Below, piece by piece: positions 13,221 to 24,473 of a DNA stretch of 64,000 nucleotides. The position numbers and the translations under genes are program-made. The stretch is from Lachnospiraceae bacterium (lineage in GTDB: Bacteria > Bacillota > Clostridia > Lachnospirales > Lachnospiraceae), in NCBI GenBank assembly GCA_022791575.1, contig JAAVZI010000015.1, forward strand, positions 1-64,000, read 5' to 3'. Below the pieces are notes generated by a model. That model was not told the origin of the DNA, did no database searches, and saw nothing but the letters and a program-made list of their open reading frames with translations. Numbering within the stretch: position 1 is the first letter of the stretch; each line of letters opens with the position of its first letter.

Positions 13221-13652
13221 CTATTCATCTTTCGCCAGATAATCCAGAATCTGGTCAATTCCCTCGCCTGTATAAGAACTGACAAAAAATATCTCTTTAC
13301 AGCCTGCCAGCTCCAGCCACATCTTGGCTAGATCCGGCCTGGCGTCGATTTGGTCAATCTGTGTTACAATTCCTATCACCGGCCTGGTAGATGCTGCCGT
13401 AACACAGGGCGGAAACAGGCTGTATGTATCGGTGGCGCTGATTAAAAGCCCAACCACATCGGCCTCATAAGAGTACAAAGCCAATGCCCTTCCCAGGGTA
13501 TGGTTTTCAGCATACTCCCCAGGGGTATCAATCACCACTTGAAAATGATTCACATACTGAGTCTTATGATAATGCAGCTTTTCACCATTAAGAGCTTGGC
13601 GCAGAGTCGTCTTGCCGCATTCGCTGCGTCCCATTAATATAATCTTTCTCAT
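13221..13652 (-). CDS. EutP/PduV-like small GTPase
   Basis: A 143-residue P-loop protein. The Walker A motif GRSECGKTT is at about residues 8-16, DTPGEY is the G3 motif, and TQIDQID (G4-like, NKxD replaced by TQID) and VSSYTGEGID follow. This is the EutP/PduV family, GTPase-like proteins of ethanolamine or propanediol microcompartment operons whose exact job is uncertain. The start is the ATG at 13652, which overlaps the stop of the upstream shell-protein gene in ATGA. A further six codons upstream starting at TTG are possible but unlikely. Confidence 0.85.
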   Translation of the reverse strand: MRKIILMGRSECGKTTLRQALNGEKLHYHKTQYVNHFQVVIDTPGEYAENHTLGRALALYSYEADVVGLLISATDTYSLFPPCVTAASTRPVIGIVTQIDQIDARPDLAKMWLELAGCKEIFFVSSYTGEGIDQILDYLAKDE

Positions 13653-14032
13653 GTTCTTGTAATCCCACAAACAGTAAACCCGAGATTCTCCTTCGTATAC
13701 TTTAAAATTGCCTGGATCGCAGATTCTACCTCAGCAATTCTTCCTGTAATGATCAAAGTTCCGCTGAACCGGTCAATAAAGCCCAGCTCAATATTGGCCG
13801 TCTTAATTGCCAGATCTCCGGCAATAACTGACACTTCACTGGGGCACATGGTCAAGATTCCAATGGCTGCCCGCTGATAATCCACTCCCGGGTCCAAACC
13901 AAGCTTCCGATATACAACCGGGTCGGGACTTGCAATGACATGTGCCATGGTAATCTGCTTACCAGGCACCTGCTCCTGTATAATTCTTAGCTTTTCTCCA
14001 TTTTCCTGATTAACCAACTGATTAAAATCCAT
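13649..14032 (-). CDS. Bacterial microcompartment shell protein, EutS/PduU-like
   Basis: A 127-residue protein with one BMC fold of the circularly permuted EutS/PduU type: an N-terminal extension, then AAIGILTMCPSEVSVIAGDLAIKTA and the later GFIDRFSGTLIITG region. EutS-type hexamers normally sit in the shell of an ethanolamine or propanediol organelle. The start ATG at 14032 has AAAGGAG ten bases upstream; an in-frame TTG three codons earlier lies too close to it. It is paired with the EutP-like GTPase and has no other microcompartment gene in the window. Confidence 0.85.
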   Translation of the reverse strand: MDFNQLVNQENGEKLRIIQEQVPGKQITMAHVIASPDPVVYRKLGLDPGVDYQRAAIGILTMCPSEVSVIAGDLAIKTANIELGFIDRFSGTLIITGRIAEVESAIQAILKYTKENLGFTVCGITRT

Positions 14033-14102
14033 AGTATTCAAGCTCCTTTATCAAACATCTGTCCGCATAGTGACACGTTGGCCCGCAACTGCCTATACAA
14101 TA

Positions 14103-14136: not shown

Positions 14137-17100
14137 TTACAGGCTTTTTGTTGTTTCAACTATTATTTCCTTTTCCAAAAAGACAGAATATAACACCAAT
14201 TCCTTCACTCTTTTTCCGGTAATCTCCTGCAGAGCTCTTTGATAATATTCAAACTGGATACGGTAACGCTGGCTTAACATGGATTCCTGGCCTTCCTTTA
14301 TGTAATCCGTCTTATAATCCAGCAAAACCAGTTCCCCTTCCTCTTCAAAAAAAACATCAATAATACCCTGAACCATAATCAGTTCCTGACTATCCCAGTT
14401 GTCATTAATCTCACAGGCTGGCACGGCATATACAAAAGGCTGCTCTTTATAGAGCTTTCCTTCTGTCTGAGCTCTCCGCATTCTCCTGCCAATCTCCGAA
14501 CAGGCAAAACGCCAGATCTTTCTTGGACGGATAACTGCCCGCATCCGTTCTTCCAATATGCCATTTTCATAGAAATGCTCCAGCTGCTCTTCAACATGAG
14601 AAATGCTTTCGCACCTGTCTAAGTCCAGACATTCAAATACTTTATGATAAGCGGTTCCACGGTTGACCGCTGATACTTCTGCTCTTTCCTGTTGTAGAAA
14701 AGAAGGCTGAATCTTCACACTTTCCTGCAGTGGGTATAGTAGATGCCCTTCTTCCGGTTCCTCTCTTTGGGCACGCTTTAATTCCGATACGGTTACTTTG
14801 GCCGGAATGCTCATCTGCTCTTCATATTGATACTGATATTCCAACCTTTCCCGAAGTTTTTCCGGCAGCTCTTCCTGATTCCCAGACTTCTCCATATCCA
14901 TCTGCAGATTCATCCGTTCTTCCTGTACCAGTTCCTGAAGATCTTCTTCTATCAATTCTGATAACTGAATCTCTCGGATCAAAAAAGAAGCATGGGGAAA
15001 ATCTGACTGCACACGGGTAGACGGAGGGGTACTGATATAATTTCTGATTTCTTCCTCTGCATCCGGATGACCAGAAAGTGCTGCCAAAATCCACTCCATA
15101 TAGCTGCCTGCCATAGTCAGGCTGCCATAGTCCGGCGCAGATGAATAGCCGTCCCGGCAGGCCCTTTTAATACACTTTTCTATCTGATCAACACCACCGG
15201 TCAGAATCAGTTTCTCCCGCGCACGGGTCAGGGCGACATACAATACCCTGAGTTCTTCCCCTAAGCTCTCTAATTGATTCTGCAGTAAAATCACGGAACG
15301 CAGCAAGGTCTTATTCTTCTGCCTGGTTTCCAGCAGTACATGTTCCATACCCAGACCTAACGTATGGTGGATGACCAGCGGCTGCCGGGATTCCATCTTA
15401 TTGAACTTCCTTCCCAGGCCGGCTGCAATCACAATCGGAAACTCCAGACCCTTGCTCTTATGAATCGTCATAATCCGTACCGTATCATCATTCTCACTGA
15501 TAATGGAAGCTTCACCTGTATCAATCTTGTATTTTTCCAGCTGTTCCATATAACGGATAAACTGAAAGACCCCGGCATAGCTGGTTTCTTCGAATGCAGC
15601 AGCTTTCTCAACCAGCATTTCCATATTGGCTTTTTTCTGTCCTCCTCCAGGCATCACTCCAATATAATCCCCATAACCCGTAGCATCCAGAATATGGCAG
15701 ATAAATTTATGAATCGGCATATAGCACATTTCCATTCTAAATTGCTGTAATTGTGCAAAGAATTCAGACAATTTAATCCGCAGTGCCTCCTCTTCTCCTT
15801 CTTCCATATAGTGCTGAACACATTGATAAATTGAAACCTCTTCCTGTTCAATACGAATCTTCACCAATTCTTCATCGTCCAGACCCACAAACGGAGATTT
15901 CAGTACTGATAACAGTGGAATATCCTGCAGCGGATTATCTATGATGCGAAGATAATTGAGCATGGTAGTAATCTCTAATGTATCAAAATACCCTTCGCGG
16001 GAAAGCATATGCGCCGGAATCCCTTCTGCTGCCAATTCTTCCAGCAATATCGTATCAAAGCCGCCGGTACTTCGAAGCAGAATCGCAATATCCCGATATC
16101 TGGCCTTTCGGTAAGTTCCCTCTCTTTTATCCAGAACATCAAGTCCGGTTTCCTCATCCACCAGCGCTTTGATCCGGTGGGCAATCAGTTTGGATTCATA
16201 TTGAATCGAATCTATATCCAGGTCTTTATTCTTACGGTCAAACAGCAGCAGTTCCGTTGTATAATCTCCCTCATGAACCGGCGTTGCAAACTCCATTCCC
16301 TGATAAAGCGCACTGGCATGGTCATAATCAATCCCTCCCAGAGAGCGTTTCATAATCTTCTCAAATATATAGTTTGCACTATCTAACACCTCGCCGCGGC
16401 TGCGGAAATTCTTATGCAGATCAATTCTGCGGCACGGTCCTTCTTCCAGAGAATAGGTGTGGTATTTCTCCATAAACAACTCTGGCCTTGCCAGCCGGAA
16501 ACGATAGATACTCTGCTTAGCATCCCCGACCATAAACAGATTGTTCCCACCCAGAGGCTGTTTCGATATACTGGTCAGCAGATATTCTTGTACTAGATTG
16601 CTGTCCTGGTATTCATCAATTAATATTTCTTCAAAAAACTCCGCATACTCCTTGGCGGTCTCTGTTGGCTCCCCTTCCTCATTTCTCAAAATATGAAGCG
16701 CCTCATGCTCCAGGTCATTAAAATCCAATAGATTCTGCCGATGCTTTTCTTCCTGAAAACGCTCCTGAAAACGCAGCACTGCCTGAATCAGCATTTCAAT
16801 TACCGGCGCACAATGAGACAGATCCTCTAAGATTTGCTCTGCACTCTGCTGAAAATACACTTCCCTCATTTTTTCCAGAATTTCCTTGACCTCATCCCGC
16901 AGCCCCTTCACCTCTTCTCTTACTTCTGCATCCGGACAGCTCTTTTTCCCTTTGGGAAGTGCCGGGGATGTTAGATTCTCCAGCTGCTTCTGCCAGCTGC
17001 TGTAATCACACTCTGCCTTCATAGCCTGAATCCGGGAAGCATAATAGTCAAAGATCTGCTGATAGTTTTCCGCCTCTGCAAACCCCTCTAACAGCTTCCT

Positions 17101-17802
17101 AGCCTGAACCAGCTTTTCCTCTGTATATTCCAGCATTCGAAACTGATGCGCAAATAAAATCTGCATCCATTCCGTCTGCATCAGTTCCTCATATGTGTTA
17201 ACCGTATAAAGGTTCCGGCAGTGTTCCAGCCACTGTCTGGGATATGGATAACTCATAGCAAAATCATATAAAGTAAGAACAATCTCTTCAATTCTGTCAT
17301 CACTTTTTCCGCTGGAAAATGTTTCGGTAAAACGATAGAACTCCTCACTGCCTTCTGTATAAAAATCCTCCAGCACAAGGGAAAGAACTTCCTTCTTCAT
17401 CAGCTTTAATTCGCCCTCGTCCCCTATACGAAAGGACGGTTCCAAATCTATTTCCTGAAAATGATTTTGGATCACATGCTTACAGAAGCTGTGAATCGTA
17501 GAAATATTCGCCATATGAATCCTGGTCCTCTGCCTCTGCAAATGCTCATTCTCTGGATGAAGAGCCGCTTCTTTTTCTATTGCAGCCTGAATTCGTTCCC
17601 GCATTTCTCCGGCGGCTGCCTGGGTAAAGGTAACTATTACCATCTGGTCAATATTAACTGGATGGTTCTGGTCCATCACTTTATCAATAATACGCTGTAC
17701 CAGTACGGCTGTCTTCCCAGAACCGGCAGCCGCTGAAACCAGAATATTGGCCTCTCTTAACGATATTACCTGTTGTTGTTCCTCTGTCCACTGCACCGCC
17801 AT
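14137..17802 (-). CDS. addA: ATP-dependent helicase/nuclease subunit A
   Basis: A 1221-residue UvrD-type helicase-nuclease that, with AddB, resects double-strand ends for recombination (the Firmicute counterpart of RecBCD). AAAGSGKT is the Walker A at 24-31. Helicase motifs TFTQAAAGEM, LIDEYQDSN (Walker B), VGDAKQSIYRFR and MTIHKSKGLEFP follow, then VALTRAREKL. The RecB-like nuclease at the C-terminus has LLDYKTDY near residue 1160, with the catalytic Asp and Lys. The start overlaps the addB stop by one base. It is the last gene of the run that begins at the LexA-box promoter. Confidence 0.97.
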   Translation of the reverse strand: MAVQWTEEQQQVISLREANILVSAAAGSGKTAVLVQRIIDKVMDQNHPVNIDQMVIVTFTQAAAGEMRERIQAAIEKEAALHPENEHLQRQRTRIHMANISTIHSFCKHVIQNHFQEIDLEPSFRIGDEGELKLMKKEVLSLVLEDFYTEGSEEFYRFTETFSSGKSDDRIEEIVLTLYDFAMSYPYPRQWLEHCRNLYTVNTYEELMQTEWMQILFAHQFRMLEYTEEKLVQARKLLEGFAEAENYQQIFDYYASRIQAMKAECDYSSWQKQLENLTSPALPKGKKSCPDAEVREEVKGLRDEVKEILEKMREVYFQQSAEQILEDLSHCAPVIEMLIQAVLRFQERFQEEKHRQNLLDFNDLEHEALHILRNEEGEPTETAKEYAEFFEEILIDEYQDSNLVQEYLLTSISKQPLGGNNLFMVGDAKQSIYRFRLARPELFMEKYHTYSLEEGPCRRIDLHKNFRSRGEVLDSANYIFEKIMKRSLGGIDYDHASALYQGMEFATPVHEGDYTTELLLFDRKNKDLDIDSIQYESKLIAHRIKALVDEETGLDVLDKREGTYRKARYRDIAILLRSTGGFDTILLEELAAEGIPAHMLSREGYFDTLEITTMLNYLRIIDNPLQDIPLLSVLKSPFVGLDDEELVKIRIEQEEVSIYQCVQHYMEEGEEEALRIKLSEFFAQLQQFRMEMCYMPIHKFICHILDATGYGDYIGVMPGGGQKKANMEMLVEKAAAFEETSYAGVFQFIRYMEQLEKYKIDTGEASIISENDDTVRIMTIHKSKGLEFPIVIAAGLGRKFNKMESRQPLVIHHTLGLGMEHVLLETRQKNKTLLRSVILLQNQLESLGEELRVLYVALTRAREKLILTGGVDQIEKCIKRACRDGYSSAPDYGSLTMAGSYMEWILAALSGHPDAEEEIRNYISTPPSTRVQSDFPHASFLIREIQLSELIEEDLQELVQEERMNLQMDMEKSGNQEELPEKLRERLEYQYQYEEQMSIPAKVTVSELKRAQREEPEEGHLLYPLQESVKIQPSFLQQERAEVSAVNRGTAYHKVFECLDLDRCESISHVEEQLEHFYENGILEERMRAVIRPRKIWRFACSEIGRRMRRAQTEGKLYKEQPFVYAVPACEINDNWDSQELIMVQGIIDVFFEEEGELVLLDYKTDYIKEGQESMLSQRYRIQFEYYQRALQEITGKRVKELVLYSVFLEKEIIVETTKSL

Positions 17803-20800
17803 TATGATTCCTCCTTCTGGGGATTCGACCCGTGCTTTTCCTCTATAGATTCCTTCATACGGGCATAGATTTCAGAATCGTTCAGCTTCTCCAGCTTACG
17901 GAATTCCTGGGGCTGCCCGTTCCTCTCCTGCATACAAATACTTCGATAGCCGCAGTAACTACAAGAAGTCAGCTCATGATCCATATAGGGATTGATCTGT
18001 ATATCGCCTGATAAAATTTCCTCTCCCATACTTCTCATCTTCTGGCTGGCATACTCCATCATGACCTGAAATTCTTCTTCCGATACCGTTTTGCTCCTGG
18101 CTGACAAAGTTCCGTCCTTCTTGCGGCTGACCGGAATCACCTTGGATTCATAAACTGCCCCTTCTTCTTCAAAGGTTCGATCCATTCCAGACAGTACTTC
18201 CTCGTTATCACTAATCACACCATCCACTCGGAGTGCCTTGAGAAGCTGATCTTCATAATCCGCTTCCCGGCTGCGCTCTATCAGCGGATCATCTACCCTA
18301 TAATAGACAATACCTGCCGGAAGCACTTTCTTCTCCGGGTACAGCTCCTTCTCAAACTGCATGGCTGCCTGCAGGTATACAATTAGCTGCAGTTGGGTTC
18401 CATAATAAACATTCAGCAGTTTAAACTCCTTTTTACCTGTTTTGTAATCCATCACCTTCACATATAAGTGGTCTTCTTTCTCACAGATATCCATACGGTC
18501 AATCCTGCCTCTGAGGTTCAGCCTTGCCGCTTCTTTTAAACCATTCTGAATCGGCTCTGTATTATGAAACTGCAGTTCATAACGGGAGGGAATAAACTGT
18601 CCCTGAGCCAGCTGTTTTGTCAAGGCCCACACGGTACGCTTGGCAATCCGCTTCATTCTTGTTATGCGGTACTGATCTCTCGCTGTATAATATAAAACTG
18701 CAGAATCGTACTTTAATATGGCAGCATCGACACATTGTTCAATCAGCTGCTCTTGCAGCTCCTCCTCCACTTCACTCCATAACAGATTTCTTTTCGCCAA
18801 CTCTTTTGCATAAAGCTCCAGAGCCTCATGAAGAATATTACCAAAGTCCAGGTTCTGAAAACCATATTCCTCCCGTTCTCCCGCACCAAGTCCGTACTGG
18901 AGAAAATGAGCATACGCACACGCAGCATACTTTTCCAATCGAGTCACGCTGCCGGACAGTTCATTGGTATACAGCGCTTTGGCAAGCGCTGCTTGAATAC
19001 GGTCACTGCCTTTGCCGTCCCTAGCTGCTTTCTTAAGTTTCTGCAAATGCTCCTTATACCAAGGCTTTTCCTCGAACCAGCGGTACAGCGGATAAAAAGC
19101 TTCTGGCTTGGTTCTTCTCAAATATGTAATGACATACTGCATAGCATTGACCGGAGAGACAATGCTGGCAAATTCTTTCCGCCGTTCTTCCTCATCTGTT
19201 ACAATGGTCTGCGGAAATAACTGTAGAACAGTCTTAATCAGGTAAGAAGGATTCCTGGCCTCGCCAGAGGCATCCACCTTGCTATAAGACAAATACAGCT
19301 TTTCACGGGGTTTGGTCATATTCAGGTACAGATAAAACTTCTGGGTATAATATTGTTCTTCTCGGCCAGGTGCCAGTTCAATCCCCTGTTCTCTTAAATG
19401 CTCTCTCTCCAATTCTGACAGTATTCCTGCCTCTGATTTATTCTTGGGAATCACACCGTCATTTACCCCCAGAAAGAATAATGCCCTGATATCTTTTAAA
19501 CGACTTCGTTCAATATCACCAACCGTCACTTGGTCTACTCCTGGCGGAATAATACCCACTTTGGTCTCTGCAAACCCCGCGTCCAGAAGCTTTGCATACT
19601 CTTCTCCATCCATTTTCTCATTGCCCAGAAGTTCCGCCAGCCGCTCCAGAATCTCAATTACAACCTTATACATCTGGCTATACTCTTTCCCCAAGGCCGT
19701 TTCTCCCCGCTCCTGGAAAATTTGTGTATATTGTTCTAATTGTTCCTGTACTTTATATATTTCCAATAATTGATACAATTCTTTGGTTTTTTCCAAAACC
19801 GTGGTCCGTTTCGAACGAATTACTTTGGTAAATGCAAGCATAGGCTGAATAAACTGCTCTCTTGATTGGTTTAGTTCCTTCAGCTCCTCTTCCTCCATGC
19901 CTCTTAGCGGTGACTGCCACTCTTCCTTCCAGCGTTTGCGTCCGCGGATTCCCTTTGCCAAAATATAATTTTGCATCTGATCTAAGACAGACTGTTCTAT
20001 AGGAATCAGCCCTGTCCTCCAGAGTTTTCCCACACTCTCATAGGTAAAGTCCCTGACTGCGCACTCCAGCAGACTTCGAATACAGGCAATCGCCGGATTA
20101 GCCAAAGCGTTTCTCTTATAATCGCTGAAATACGGAATCTGATATTGTTCAAACACCCGCTCTGCATAACTGCCGTACTTTGCAAGTTCTCCAGTTACAA
20201 CGGCAATATCCCGGTAACGATATCCTTCTTCTATAACTAAACGCCGAATCTCCTCTGCCGCAAACTGCATTTCCTCCAAAGGGTTCCGGCACTGATGAAT
20301 GCTGATTTGTTCCTGACTGCCTGAATAAGCCTTGGGCTGATTACGAAACAGATGTTTCTCCAGCCATGCCATGGCTGGGTTATCCTGAAATCTTTTATTC
20401 CCTTCGGCCGGAAAAATCACGTCCTTCTCCCGGCTGGCGCCAGCTTCTTCCGCCATAGCTGTCAGATCTTTCATCATCTTCGCGCTCATATAAAACAAAT
20501 GATAATCAGGAAGTGAACTGCGGACTGGCTGGGATGTATCATAAGTAACCGTTACCCACATATCCTGGCACAGTCCCAGAAGCCTTCCGATCAGCTTCTT
20601 CTGTACTGGTGTAAAACCAGTAAAACCATCCAGTATAATCGTAGCATCCTTTAAGAACAAAGACTGGTCCGCAACTCTGTATAAGGCATCCAGCAGTTCT
20701 TCTGATGTAATATACTGTTCTTTTAGAAAGTCTTGAAACGTCTCATAGATCAGTTTCATATCGTGCAGTTTTCCAAATATTTGCTGTTGATTTTGATTCT

Positions 20801-21233
20801 CCTGCAGAAGCTTGTCTAATACTTCTCCCTGTACATCATATTGCATAAACTCGGAAATCATGGATTTCACTTCATTGATATAGCCGATTTTGGAAAGATA
20901 ATTTCCCATCACAATTAAATCCTGTTTTTTTTCTTCGGCTGCTTTACGGACAACAAAAATCTTACCGATTTCATCCAAAATCGGCAGCTGAGCAGTATTC
21001 GTCTCACTAAATACCCGATAAGCAAGGCGTTCAAAGCTTAATATATCAATATTCAGAATTCCATGTGAGGGACTCATAGACACAAAGCTTTTCTGAGTCT
21101 GCATGGTAAACTGTTCTGGTACTAGGACGATATACTGATGTCTGGAGTTCTGCCCGGCCGCCTTAAGTACCTGCTGATACAGCGTATAAGATTTACCGGA
21201 ACCAGAATTGCCAATATAAAACTGCAGGGACAT
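17802..21233 (-). CDS. addB: ATP-dependent helicase/nuclease subunit B
   Basis: An 1143-residue partner of AddA. It has a P-loop GNSGSGKSY at 8-16, a helicase-like scaffold without full helicase motifs, and a C-terminal nuclease with MDYKTGKKEF. The iron-sulfur cluster ligands are one Cys in EKYAACAYAHF near 800 and the C1091-x2-C1094-x5-C1100 triplet close to the end; this Cys set is diagnostic of AddB. It starts 13 bases after the ATP-grasp gene, so it belongs to the same transcript. Confidence 0.96.
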   Translation of the reverse strand: MSLQFYIGNSGSGKSYTLYQQVLKAAGQNSRHQYIVLVPEQFTMQTQKSFVSMSPSHGILNIDILSFERLAYRVFSETNTAQLPILDEIGKIFVVRKAAEEKKQDLIVMGNYLSKIGYINEVKSMISEFMQYDVQGEVLDKLLQENQNQQQIFGKLHDMKLIYETFQDFLKEQYITSEELLDALYRVADQSLFLKDATIILDGFTGFTPVQKKLIGRLLGLCQDMWVTVTYDTSQPVRSSLPDYHLFYMSAKMMKDLTAMAEEAGASREKDVIFPAEGNKRFQDNPAMAWLEKHLFRNQPKAYSGSQEQISIHQCRNPLEEMQFAAEEIRRLVIEEGYRYRDIAVVTGELAKYGSYAERVFEQYQIPYFSDYKRNALANPAIACIRSLLECAVRDFTYESVGKLWRTGLIPIEQSVLDQMQNYILAKGIRGRKRWKEEWQSPLRGMEEEELKELNQSREQFIQPMLAFTKVIRSKRTTVLEKTKELYQLLEIYKVQEQLEQYTQIFQERGETALGKEYSQMYKVVIEILERLAELLGNEKMDGEEYAKLLDAGFAETKVGIIPPGVDQVTVGDIERSRLKDIRALFFLGVNDGVIPKNKSEAGILSELEREHLREQGIELAPGREEQYYTQKFYLYLNMTKPREKLYLSYSKVDASGEARNPSYLIKTVLQLFPQTIVTDEEERRKEFASIVSPVNAMQYVITYLRRTKPEAFYPLYRWFEEKPWYKEHLQKLKKAARDGKGSDRIQAALAKALYTNELSGSVTRLEKYAACAYAHFLQYGLGAGEREEYGFQNLDFGNILHEALELYAKELAKRNLLWSEVEEELQEQLIEQCVDAAILKYDSAVLYYTARDQYRITRMKRIAKRTVWALTKQLAQGQFIPSRYELQFHNTEPIQNGLKEAARLNLRGRIDRMDICEKEDHLYVKVMDYKTGKKEFKLLNVYYGTQLQLIVYLQAAMQFEKELYPEKKVLPAGIVYYRVDDPLIERSREADYEDQLLKALRVDGVISDNEEVLSGMDRTFEEEGAVYESKVIPVSRKKDGTLSARSKTVSEEEFQVMMEYASQKMRSMGEEILSGDIQINPYMDHELTSCSYCGYRSICMQERNGQPQEFRKLEKLNDSEIYARMKESIEEKHGSNPQKEES

Positions 21234-21246
21234 AACAAAAACCTCC

Positions 21247-22581
21247 TTATTGATCTGCGGGCTTCACGAGAATGGTCGCTATCGACATCTCACTATATTG
21301 GGTAGAAATAACGCTGCACTCAGCAATACGGGAATAGATACCGTAGAACCTGCCATGATAGACATAGAGGCCAGTGATATTACTGTAATCTCCAAACTGC
21401 GCTTCTTCCCTCTTCATCAGATCTATATTAATCGTACGATATGGCTGACAGAATTCCTGTACAATATAATGTCTGTTATACTGCTGCGGCACCAGCTTCT
21501 CCCACTCCTCCTGGCTGTACTCCACACCCGCATAAACCCCCTTGGAACCATAGGAATCTTCTGGCTTCAGAATCCACCCTTCACGATGATTCAATACCTT
21601 CTCCAGAGGCACCAATTCCTTTACAAAGCTCTGGGTATAGGGAAAGTGCTGTTGAACAAACTGCTGCTCTGCTTCTGTCAGCATCGACAGAGTCTCTTCC
21701 ATCTGAACAACCTTATAGAAAATCTTATTATGCACCACCTGAGTTCTAAAATCGCCTAAGATACAAACCGCACCCGCTTTTACTGCCTGAATCAACGGCT
21801 GCACCTCTTCATAGTGCTCCATAATATCACAGGTTACCGCTCTTCTGTAAATCATATCAATCTTTCTGCCAGACGGGGAATATAAGGCCTGACCATCGAA
21901 TGTCAGTTCTCTAATTTCACAGATTTCAGCTGTACAGCCTACCCTTCTAAGGCTTTCTGCCACTACTTTGAATTCATTCTCTGTAGCATAATCCATAAAA
22001 TCTACGATTGCCGCATGAGGGCAGCTGCTGGCATTCTCTGTTGCATCATAGATCGCTTTCAATTCTGCCGCCAGTGTATCAAACAGTTCAAACGTACACA
22101 GTTCATGATTCTCGGCAAACTGCTGGTAAGCTAGCGTTCTCTGAACGGCAATATTCAGCTCCCGGTCTTCATTCATAGCACTGGTGCCATCGGTATTAAA
22201 CTCGCAGAACTTAAAATCCCCAGTGATCTCATCATAAAAAATATCAATTCTCGCAACCGGAAGCCGGCATGGATATCGTGCCGGAAGACAAATCAATTCC
22301 TCCAGACGCGGATCAAATCCAAACAGCCTCCGGTAATCCTCATCCGCCAGATAACGGTCAATCACTTTATCAAAAATCCCATACAAGGTTCCGAGCAAAG
22401 CCTTAAAATTCGCTACGTCCCGTTCCTCAAAAAGCTTCGGCACATACAACGTTCGAACACAGCGCCCATGATATCTAGCCGAAGAATTTTCAATATATTC
22501 CAAAGCCTTCTGACCGCTTTCATAATGGGCTTTCCGATCTGCCTCAATAGACTGTATATACTCCTGTTCCAATTTTTTCAA
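21247..22581 (-). CDS. ATP-grasp ligase resembling glutathionylspermidine synthetase
   Basis: A 444-residue ATP-grasp enzyme. Motifs typical of the glutathionylspermidine-synthetase-like class are visible: ARIDIFYDE followed by FKFCEFNTDGTSAMNE (about 135-155, Mg/substrate loop), VVHNKIFYKVV (about 287-297), and GWILKPEDSYGSKGVYAG (about 335-352), the ATP-binding lysine and glycine loop. Such enzymes join a carboxylate to an amine with ATP. No amidase domain is fused, unlike E. coli Gsp. It lies 17 bases downstream of a GCS2-type gamma-glutamyl ligase and 13 bases upstream of addB, suggesting it extends the product of the former. The actual substrate is unknown. Confidence 0.7.
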   Translation of the reverse strand: MKKLEQEYIQSIEADRKAHYESGQKALEYIENSSARYHGRCVRTLYVPKLFEERDVANFKALLGTLYGIFDKVIDRYLADEDYRRLFGFDPRLEELICLPARYPCRLPVARIDIFYDEITGDFKFCEFNTDGTSAMNEDRELNIAVQRTLAYQQFAENHELCTFELFDTLAAELKAIYDATENASSCPHAAIVDFMDYATENEFKVVAESLRRVGCTAEICEIRELTFDGQALYSPSGRKIDMIYRRAVTCDIMEHYEEVQPLIQAVKAGAVCILGDFRTQVVHNKIFYKVVQMEETLSMLTEAEQQFVQQHFPYTQSFVKELVPLEKVLNHREGWILKPEDSYGSKGVYAGVEYSQEEWEKLVPQQYNRHYIVQEFCQPYRTINIDLMKREEAQFGDYSNITGLYVYHGRFYGIYSRIAECSVISTQYSEMSIATILVKPADQ

Positions 22582-22598
22582 TTTCTGCTTCCTTCTTT

Positions 22599-23858
22599 CT
22601 ATTCATTTCGATCCCGTACACTCTTCCCAGCCTGTACCAGTCTTTGCATTGGCTGGAGATAGGTTCGTTCCTCTTCCTCTAACTGCTGTCCCGCAAGCCT
22701 GAACATCCGTTCAAGCCAAAATCCCGCCGGCTTTCCATAAATCTTTCCCTGATATCCCCATGTTATCAACTGGTCCTTTCCCTGCCGCACATCCTCCTGC
22801 GTCATATGGCCAGATGGAGTGAATTGTTCTAATTCTTTGTATAATTTATACAATTCATCCCTATTCCAGAACATTCCCTTAAGCAGTGCAATATAGGACA
22901 TGGTATATTCTAAAGGCATGCTGTCTCCCACACGGATCTCCACATATTGCTTCAGCCTCACATCTGGAAATACAATAGACAAACCATGCTCTAATTGCTC
23001 TTCACTAAGCACTGCTTCTTTGCATAGATCCTTCAGCGACTTTCTTCCTACATAATCCTCGTTCCCATCCTTCTCCGCAAAAATAGAAGGAACTTCATAA
23101 ACCCATTTGGCATAAGCTTCAAACCCAAAACCATCATCAAACGTTCCCGGAACCATCGTACAGCGTTCCGGATCTACCCGATCCCATATAAAGGAACGAG
23201 CCATATGCTTCTCCCAAGGCTTCTTCTGAAAAATAGGTGCATTATCCGTTAACAGAGCAAATAACGGCGAAAATGCCACTGCAGCCCGATAAGTTTTGAC
23301 AAAATCCTCCTCGCTGTAATAATCTACAGAGCCCTGCACCGAAGCAGTCCCTCTCATCATACAGCGGCCATACATCCCAATCTCTTCAAAATACCGGTTC
23401 ATAAACTGATACCGCTTCTTGGGAATCAATTCCATATCTTCTGACCTTTCTGTCAGATGATACCCCGTTGTCAGCAGACACTGATCCCATTCTTCTAAAA
23501 TCGGATGGATCTGATCGATAAACTGCAGATAAATCTCCTCAATATCTTTCAACCATGTCCTTGGTACAATGCTGATCTCCAGCTGTGCCGCCGGTTCTAT
23601 AGAAATCACATAGGCATCATTTCCAAGGGCAATCAGCTGACCCTCACTCCTTCCCTTCTGAGGAAATGCTTCTGAAATTCGTTCCAGAAGCGCTCCAACG
23701 CCATGTGGTCCATAATAGCTGACTGCTGTCTGATCCTTCTTCTTAATTACAAAGTGCTCCACCTCCATTCCCACCGCCCCGGTATGCTTCTCCTTGCATC
23801 CAGCTTGGAAATACTCTCTGATCATCTGTATATTTCTTCTATCCGACTCGCTGCTCAT
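22599..23858 (-). CDS. Glutamate-cysteine ligase family 2 (GCS2) protein
   Basis: A 419-residue member of the GCS2 carboxylate-amine ligase family, which activates the gamma-carboxyl of glutamate with ATP and attaches it to an amine such as cysteine. VGMEVEHFVI near residues 29-38 is the family's G-x-E-x-E metal/glutamate motif, AQLEISIVP is near 93-101, MMRGTASVQGSVDY near 166-179 is the central strand, and YVEIRVGDSMP near 307-317 is the C-terminal metal site. It resembles the EgtA/plant-type GshA branch more than E. coli GshA. Clostridia do not usually make glutathione, so the product may be another gamma-glutamyl compound. First enzyme of the putative two-step pathway with the next gene. 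Confidence 0.75.
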   Translation of the reverse strand: MSSESDRRNIQMIREYFQAGCKEKHTGAVGMEVEHFVIKKKDQTAVSYYGPHGVGALLERISEAFPQKGRSEGQLIALGNDAYVISIEPAAQLEISIVPRTWLKDIEEIYLQFIDQIHPILEEWDQCLLTTGYHLTERSEDMELIPKKRYQFMNRYFEEIGMYGRCMMRGTASVQGSVDYYSEEDFVKTYRAAVAFSPLFALLTDNAPIFQKKPWEKHMARSFIWDRVDPERCTMVPGTFDDGFGFEAYAKWVYEVPSIFAEKDGNEDYVGRKSLKDLCKEAVLSEEQLEHGLSIVFPDVRLKQYVEIRVGDSMPLEYTMSYIALLKGMFWNRDELYKLYKELEQFTPSGHMTQEDVRQGKDQLITWGYQGKIYGKPAGFWLERMFRLAGQQLEEEERTYLQPMQRLVQAGKSVRDRNE

Positions 23859-23902
23859 ATCATTCTCTCCGTGTTCTTCTTTCTATAAACCATATAGAAT
23901 TA

Positions 23903-24334
23903 TTATTGGGCATAAAAGCCTACGACTTTCATTTCCTTATCGAATGTAATCGTATAATTTACCTCACCTTTTTCATAGGCTGCCGTTATAAGAATCACAC
24001 CGAAATCCTCCTTTGCTTCATCATGATGCTTTCCAATCACGGTCTCTTCTGTATAAGAAATAAATCCTCCCTTTCCTTTCGTCAGATTCCGCACCGTATT
24101 TTCCATAGTATCCAAATCAATATCCTTAAGAAAATCTTCTCTCATGCGCTCACTAAGTACTTGCTTAGTACCATTCAGCTGAATCTGATTAATCAGTTCC
24201 TCCCCTGAGTTCTTAATCGTCTCCTCATCAAATCCTTCTGCCAAATCCGTCGAAGCACAAGCGGTCAAAGAAAAACACAATACTAACAGACATAGGCATA
24301 CCAGAATTCCTGCAAAACTTTTTCTTCTTTTCAT
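23903..24334 (-). CDS. Small lipoprotein, DUF3887-like
   Basis: A 143-residue lipoprotein. It has KRRK at the N-terminus, a hydrophobic core and the lipobox LTAC with Cys near residue 26. The mature part resembles the DUF3887 fold (small alpha+beta, NTF2-like; VRNLTKGKGGF, VNYTITFDKEMKVVGFYAQ at the end). The start ATG at 24334 is set by GGAGG seven bases upstream; the frame could extend four codons to a TTG that lacks a ribosome site. First gene after the LexA-box promoter and 44 bases before the GCS2 gene. Function unknown. Confidence 0.75.
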   Translation of the reverse strand: MKRRKSFAGILVCLCLLVLCFSLTACASTDLAEGFDEETIKNSGEELINQIQLNGTKQVLSERMREDFLKDIDLDTMENTVRNLTKGKGGFISYTEETVIGKHHDEAKEDFGVILITAAYEKGEVNYTITFDKEMKVVGFYAQ

Positions 24335-24429
24335 AATTACCTCCAAAATAAAATTTTATCTTCCACTAGACAGCCGCCATTTCGCACCTTAGCAGATATA
24401 TTGGCAAATCCATGTTCTTGCTTTATTTT

Positions 24430-24473
24430 ATTATAGAACATACGTTCTTGTTTGTCAAGAACATTTTGAGAAC
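24430..24473 (-). promoter_or_regulatory. Consensus promoter with embedded LexA (SOS) box
   Basis: On the minus strand, TTGACA (24458-24453), 17-bp spacer, TATAAT (24435-24430): a perfect consensus. Inside the spacer, abutting the -10, is GAACATACGTTC (24436-24447), which fits the Gram-positive LexA/DinR consensus GAAC-RNRY-GTTC. A further inverted repeat, GTTCTTG-TTTGT-CAAGAAC (24444-24462), spans the -35, and another GAAC half-site lies at 24470-24473. The arrangement predicts repression by LexA and induction by DNA damage of the genes from 24334 down to addA. No lexA gene is in the window. Confidence 0.75.

Follow-up and report, generated by a model that had tools for sequence, protein, structure and literature searches.

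We propose that a gut bacterium of the family Lachnospiraceae carries a composite operon in which two ligases resembling a glutathione-making pair lie between a lipoprotein gene and the DNA-break repair genes addB and addA, with all five genes behind one strong promoter that LexA may read. We give this reading as a whole, in which the arrangement is a species-level composite with a glutathione-like module set between the lipoprotein gene and addB, a probability of about one half. The operon lies on the minus strand of a 64,000-nucleotide stretch of contig JAAVZI010000015.1 (assembly GCA_022791575.1; hereafter, the window), and coordinates given without a locus handle are window positions.

The first gene encodes a DUF3887 lipoprotein of 143 amino acids (23903-24334; Pfam PF13026, 2.1e-09, over the cut-off), whose ATG is at 24334, while the listed open reading frame begins at an upstream TTG at 24346. 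It is followed by a gene for a GCS2 ligase of 419 amino acids, a relative of plant-type glutamate-cysteine ligase (22599-23858; PF04107, 3.4e-23), and by a gene with a TTG start for an ATP-grasp ligase of 444 amino acids with the glutathione synthetase/glutathionylspermidine synthetase fold (21247-22581; PF14403, 1e-06, below the cut-off). The last two genes are addB (17802-21233; TIGR02773, 937 bits against a cut-off of 904) and addA (14137-17802; TIGR02785, 1129 bits against a cut-off of 708), identified as such by NCBIfam equivalog profiles that both exceed their cut-offs and by their adjacency with a 1-base overlap. Re-reading of the coordinates upheld the gaps of 44, 17, 13 and -1 bases that an initial annotation of this DNA had reported between the five same-strand genes, and a terminator scan found no terminator-like sites in those gaps. 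On both counts, the five genes are likely to share a single transcript. Directly 3' of addA on the same strand are genes for an EutS-like microcompartment protein and an EutP/PduV-type GTPase (13221-14041).

Ahead of the lipoprotein gene lies a consensus promoter that matches TTGACA-17-TATAAT at 12 of 12 positions (24430-24458; -35 at 24458-24453, -10 at 24435-24430). Read directly, the minus strand from 24458 is TTGACA-AACAAGAACGTATGTTC-TATAAT, with a spacer of 17 bp, and the last 12 spacer bases are a perfect palindrome, GAACGTATGTTC (24447-24436), that abuts the -10 element, as the initial annotation had described. GAAC-RNRY-GTTC is the Gram-positive LexA box, and double-strand-break repair is a classic SOS function. 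The operator form GAAC-N4-GTTC is thus present inside the spacer of the 12/12 promoter, and the palindrome, GAACRTAYGTTC at 24436-24447, is either a candidate LexA-type operator or a member of a dispersed class described below. An inverted repeat on the minus strand, ATGTTCTTGACAAACAAGAACGT (24442-24464), listed by the terminator scan, lies over the -35 element and adds a further GTTC half-site.

The promoter is the sole 12/12 match among 24 promoter-like hits between 13900 and 25000, and because that number of hits is not above shuffles (20.6 +/- 4.2), it is the 12/12 score alone that is notable. The window holds five distinct GAAC-RNRY-GTTC sites (seven strand matches against 0.12 expected) and the genome has 40 copies of GAACRTAYGTTC (reversed control 0), so the box is not rare and by itself is weak evidence. 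The unusual feature is that it fits exactly into the only perfect promoter: with 40 sites placed at random, the probability that at least one lands in a given 17-bp spacer is ~7e-5, a figure to be read with the caution that this promoter was picked post hoc. This figure bears on the idea that the five genes are an ordinary housekeeping unit with a strong promoter, in whose spacer a scattered copy of the palindrome landed by chance and has no regulatory role. Such an origin would suit a palindrome that is dense in the genome and a box that is unconserved in relatives, but it has to accommodate the low chance of that placement and the fact that any palindrome-binding protein would block the promoter, and we consider it quite unlikely.

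The palindrome belongs to a class that is dispersed through the genus. Its 40 copies in this genome comprise the one in the window and 39 further places (e.g., L053-L088), and the second genus genome that we examined (G001) has 51, compared with 0-8 in each of 114 further genomes from the family and order. Among the sequences compared, the excess of GAAC-N4-GTTC is confined to this genus and to the four-base gap; base composition is an unlikely cause, as other gaps and the reversed pattern are without excess and so are the relatives. In loci drawn from the genome collection the gap-four form is instead under-represented, with 4 occurrences in 1.03 Mb where ~11 would be expected, a deficit that resembles avoidance of LexA-like sites. 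Most copies lie inside open reading frames (27 of 40 in this genome and 30 of 35 sampled sister sites, 57 of 75 in total, at coding densities of 0.87-0.91), and only 2 of the 35 sampled sister sites coincide with sites in this genome. In other aligned genes the counterpart of the palindrome differs by one or two substitutions, and on the basis of these substitution differences, seen in few aligned genes, we rejected the idea that the palindrome is an inserted 12-mer. The dispersed copies and the box in the window have A...T flanks in common. Of the 75 sampled palindromes, only that of the window lies in a promoter scoring above 9/12; for this reason, and given that 27 of the 40 copies are intragenic, we did not derive an SOS regulon list from the genome-wide boxes.

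These distributions raise the alternative that the box in the promoter is a copy of a genus-specific, chromosome-wide palindrome read by some protein other than LexA, such as one that organises the nucleoid or a regulator with dispersed sites, and that the operon responds to this protein and is outside the SOS response. The confinement of high copy numbers and of the gap-four excess to this genus, the intragenic and rarely shared positions of the sites and the presence of the same flanks on the window's box all point in that direction. Against it, the palindrome is also a textbook Gram-positive LexA site in a genome where LexA is present, no candidate protein besides LexA was found, and LexA-type repressors typically act from sites placed in a promoter spacer. 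We regard this alternative as possible but rather unlikely. A broader idea is that GAAC-RTAY-GTTC serves this genus alone as a binding site all along the chromosome. Its ~40-50 perfect copies in each genome, mostly intragenic, would turn over fast and be read either by LexA in an extended role or by a chromosome-organising protein, which would tie break repair to that reader; we offer this idea as an unlikely, speculative lead. Within the literature library that we searched, no paper described a dispersed palindrome of this kind.

Control of the operon by LexA itself can be assessed from the SOS genes of the genome. Both lexA (231 bits) and recA (572 bits) are encoded, with scores over their cut-offs. 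The lexA gene is typical; it is divergently oriented to a yneA-type LysM gene and has several RAAnATATGTTCG sites. In both genus genomes recA has AAACATTAGTTCGGAAAATATGTTCG; lexA promoters of other Lachnospiraceae have CGAACATATGTTTG-like sites. When we searched the genome for tandem operators, only those of lexA and recA were convincing as SOS operators. Their form, tandem RAAnATATGTTCG (GAAN-N4-GTTC), differs from the single perfect palindrome of the window, which is the form common to the dispersed class. Because the box belongs to a class scattered through both genus genomes, LexA is a reader that we infer. A second LexA-like protein (G000:C53) was considered as the reader and set aside; it is a short helix-turn-helix open reading frame, and its contig, small and AT-rich, has no such box.

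The uvrB locus provides no clean reference operator. The 5' end of the gene is apparently interrupted (G000:C38:26900-29926, L069 and L293; G000:C45:38631-40538): an N-terminal remnant with two stops gives way to an intervening segment of ~2.2 kb that contains an unrelated open reading frame of 246 residues, beyond which the contig ends in another, divergent uvrB N-terminus. This arrangement could reflect an integrative element that provides the gene with a new start.

The SOS reading put forward in the initial annotation is therefore borne out in part: the box agrees with LexA sites of clostridia, the genome encodes both lexA and recA, and the arrangement predicts one transcript, but the box is not conserved and the palindrome is scattered. 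Judged from these sequence features, the chance that LexA controls the operon is about even or somewhat better.

Comparison of the addBA locus with relatives indicates that the gene order is peculiar to the species. In G001 the order is lipoprotein-addB-addA, without the ligases and without the box; the lipoprotein (58% identical) immediately precedes addB, whose product is 62% identical, and an apparent purA end, read by eye, lies just upstream. The G001 genome is 78% complete, yet intact across the lipoprotein-addB junction. A DUF3887 lipoprotein gene thus precedes addBA in the genus, in both genomes compared, and such a gene was found upstream of none of 69 further addB genes (0/69). Upstream genes vary among these loci, and we rejected the idea of a fixed upstream neighbour of addB in the family. 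Conservation of the box and of the gene order, proposed as a check in the initial annotation, was not seen: besides its absence from G001, a perfect box precedes only 1 of the 69 addB genes and none of 47 loci of the ligase pair. Family-wide conserved SOS control of addBA is rejected on the same count, as 68 of the 69 other addB genes have no preceding box, and so is the idea that the box travels with the ligase pair (0/47). The one exception is G060, where a perfect LexA-type box, GAACAAATGTTC, stands 41 bases before addB (L123); SOS control of addBA may have arisen there independently. For the ligase module we infer gain in this species as the simplest history, and loss in the sister is less simple because most of the family is without the module (the ATP-grasp gene occurs in only 12 of 145 related genomes).

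The two ligases, judged by their gene neighbourhoods, are a conserved unit of their own. A scan of the genome collection returned 443 relatives of the ATP-grasp protein, and among the best 80 of these a GCS2 gene is immediately upstream in 46, the remainder having other neighbours. In 7 of those 46 the two are fused into proteins of 832-860 residues (L198, L190, L194, L202, L204, L205 and L236). None of the best 80 of 443 has the ligase pair beside addBA. One locus on an unrelated Clostridiales contig (L234:3-2395) carries a C-terminal fragment of AddB and, ~70 bases beyond it, an ATP-grasp homologue that lacks a GCS2 partner. Another (L047:34-5023, in G011) has GCS2 and ATP-grasp genes followed by what appear by eye to be a second glutamate-cysteine ligase-like gene and a class II glutamine amidotransferase-like gene, possibly a larger thiol cluster.

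The GCS2 protein matches TIGR01436 at 2.6e-64 and 217 bits, below the 463-bit equivalog cut-off, so it is related to that family and not filed as the same equivalog. A profile of its own family, built from 19 relatives, matches plant glutamate-cysteine ligase structures at 1e-74 over positions 9-405 of 414. For the ATP-grasp protein, which none of the curated family models names, we relied on a confident structure model (pLDDT 91). Its matches, with Foldseek E-values down to 1e-18 and TM-scores of ~0.7, and VIA-align Z-scores of 25-30 over 330-420 residues at 12-16% identity, include plant, human and yeast glutathione synthetases, glutathionylspermidine and trypanothione synthetases and Escherichia coli YgiC. 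On this model the protein is a member of the glutathione synthetase/glutathionylspermidine synthetase superfamily with a permuted ATP-grasp, and the matches are tied, so that the fold does not choose among glutathione synthetase, glutathionylspermidine synthetase and YgiC. Fusion and adjacency suggest that both ligases act in sequence, and the most likely activity of the pair is synthesis of gamma-Glu-Cys and its extension to glutathione or a close analogue. The literature library that we searched yielded no paper on such a ligase pair in Lachnospiraceae.

Gene order and a shared promoter could also mean that the ligases and AddAB are a true functional module kept by selection, for example one whose thiol product, made when needed, shields DNA or AddAB while breaks are repaired. 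The position of the L234 homologue after AddB would agree with this, but that locus has no GCS2 gene, no other locus among the best 80 of 443 relatives has ligases near addBA, and addBA in the sister genome stands without them; we consider such a module very improbable. A selected link between the ligases and AddAB is not supported, the pair being found elsewhere in relatives, and the picture of an SOS unit in which ligases and AddAB belong together biochemically draws no support from the comparison with relatives. A specific biochemical link between the ligases and AddAB is not indicated.

Under the composite-operon reading that we favor, the ligase module would have been inserted between the lipoprotein gene and addB, and the lineage would have acquired a new promoter region. 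The one consensus promoter would then read all five genes, and a repressor on GAACGTATGTTC, between the -35 and -10 elements, would block RNA polymerase. LexA would be the likeliest such repressor, in which case DNA damage would release the operon. The ligases would share the induction because of their position in the operon; GCS2 would form gamma-Glu-Cys, which the ATP-grasp ligase would extend to glutathione or a near analogue.

If this reading is true, the operon neatly illustrates how a set of metabolic genes comes under damage control through its place downstream of a regulated promoter. In the ligase pair, which several relatives encode as a fusion, we see a candidate pathway of the glutathione type for Lachnospiraceae, one to which none of the curated family models that we applied gives a name. 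Because the palindrome is scattered, a tally of LexA boxes exaggerates the extent of the SOS regulon in this genus; the palindrome is the most novel lead from this work, and the identity of its reader is a testable question. Both the ligase pair and the dispersed palindrome are worth following.

Among known systems, the closest counterpart of the promoter is found in Clostridioides difficile, where LexA binds GAAC-N4-GTTC/T sites with various flanks (PMC4234289). The lexA, recA, uvrB and ruvC operators described there have the GAAC-N4-GTTC core in or near the promoter (PMC4234289), as does the candidate operator of the window. The differences are that the window's box is a candidate LexA (DinR) site and a single palindrome of a scattered class, and that addBA is absent from the C. 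difficile LexA targets seen in that paper, addA having no mention in its text (PMC4234289). The GCS2 ligase resembles plant-type glutamate-cysteine ligase (TIGR01436; PDB 2gwc and 6gmo) along its full length, as judged by the profile match at 1e-74, and differs in being bacterial, in being paired or fused with an ATP-grasp ligase and in its score of 217 against 463 bits. The ATP-grasp ligase shares its fold over most of its length with eukaryotic-type glutathione synthetase, glutathionylspermidine synthetase and YgiC (PDB 5oes, 2hgs, 2io7 and 7uka). A further likeness is its partner, which by homology makes gamma-Glu-Cys. It stands apart from them in its 12-16% identity and in reaching no curated family. 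The seven fusions recall GshF, the bifunctional GshAB of other Firmicutes, which we take to combine glutamate-cysteine ligase and ATP-grasp in one chain; here, both domains presumably come from other branches, namely plant-type glutamate-cysteine ligase and permuted ATP-grasp.
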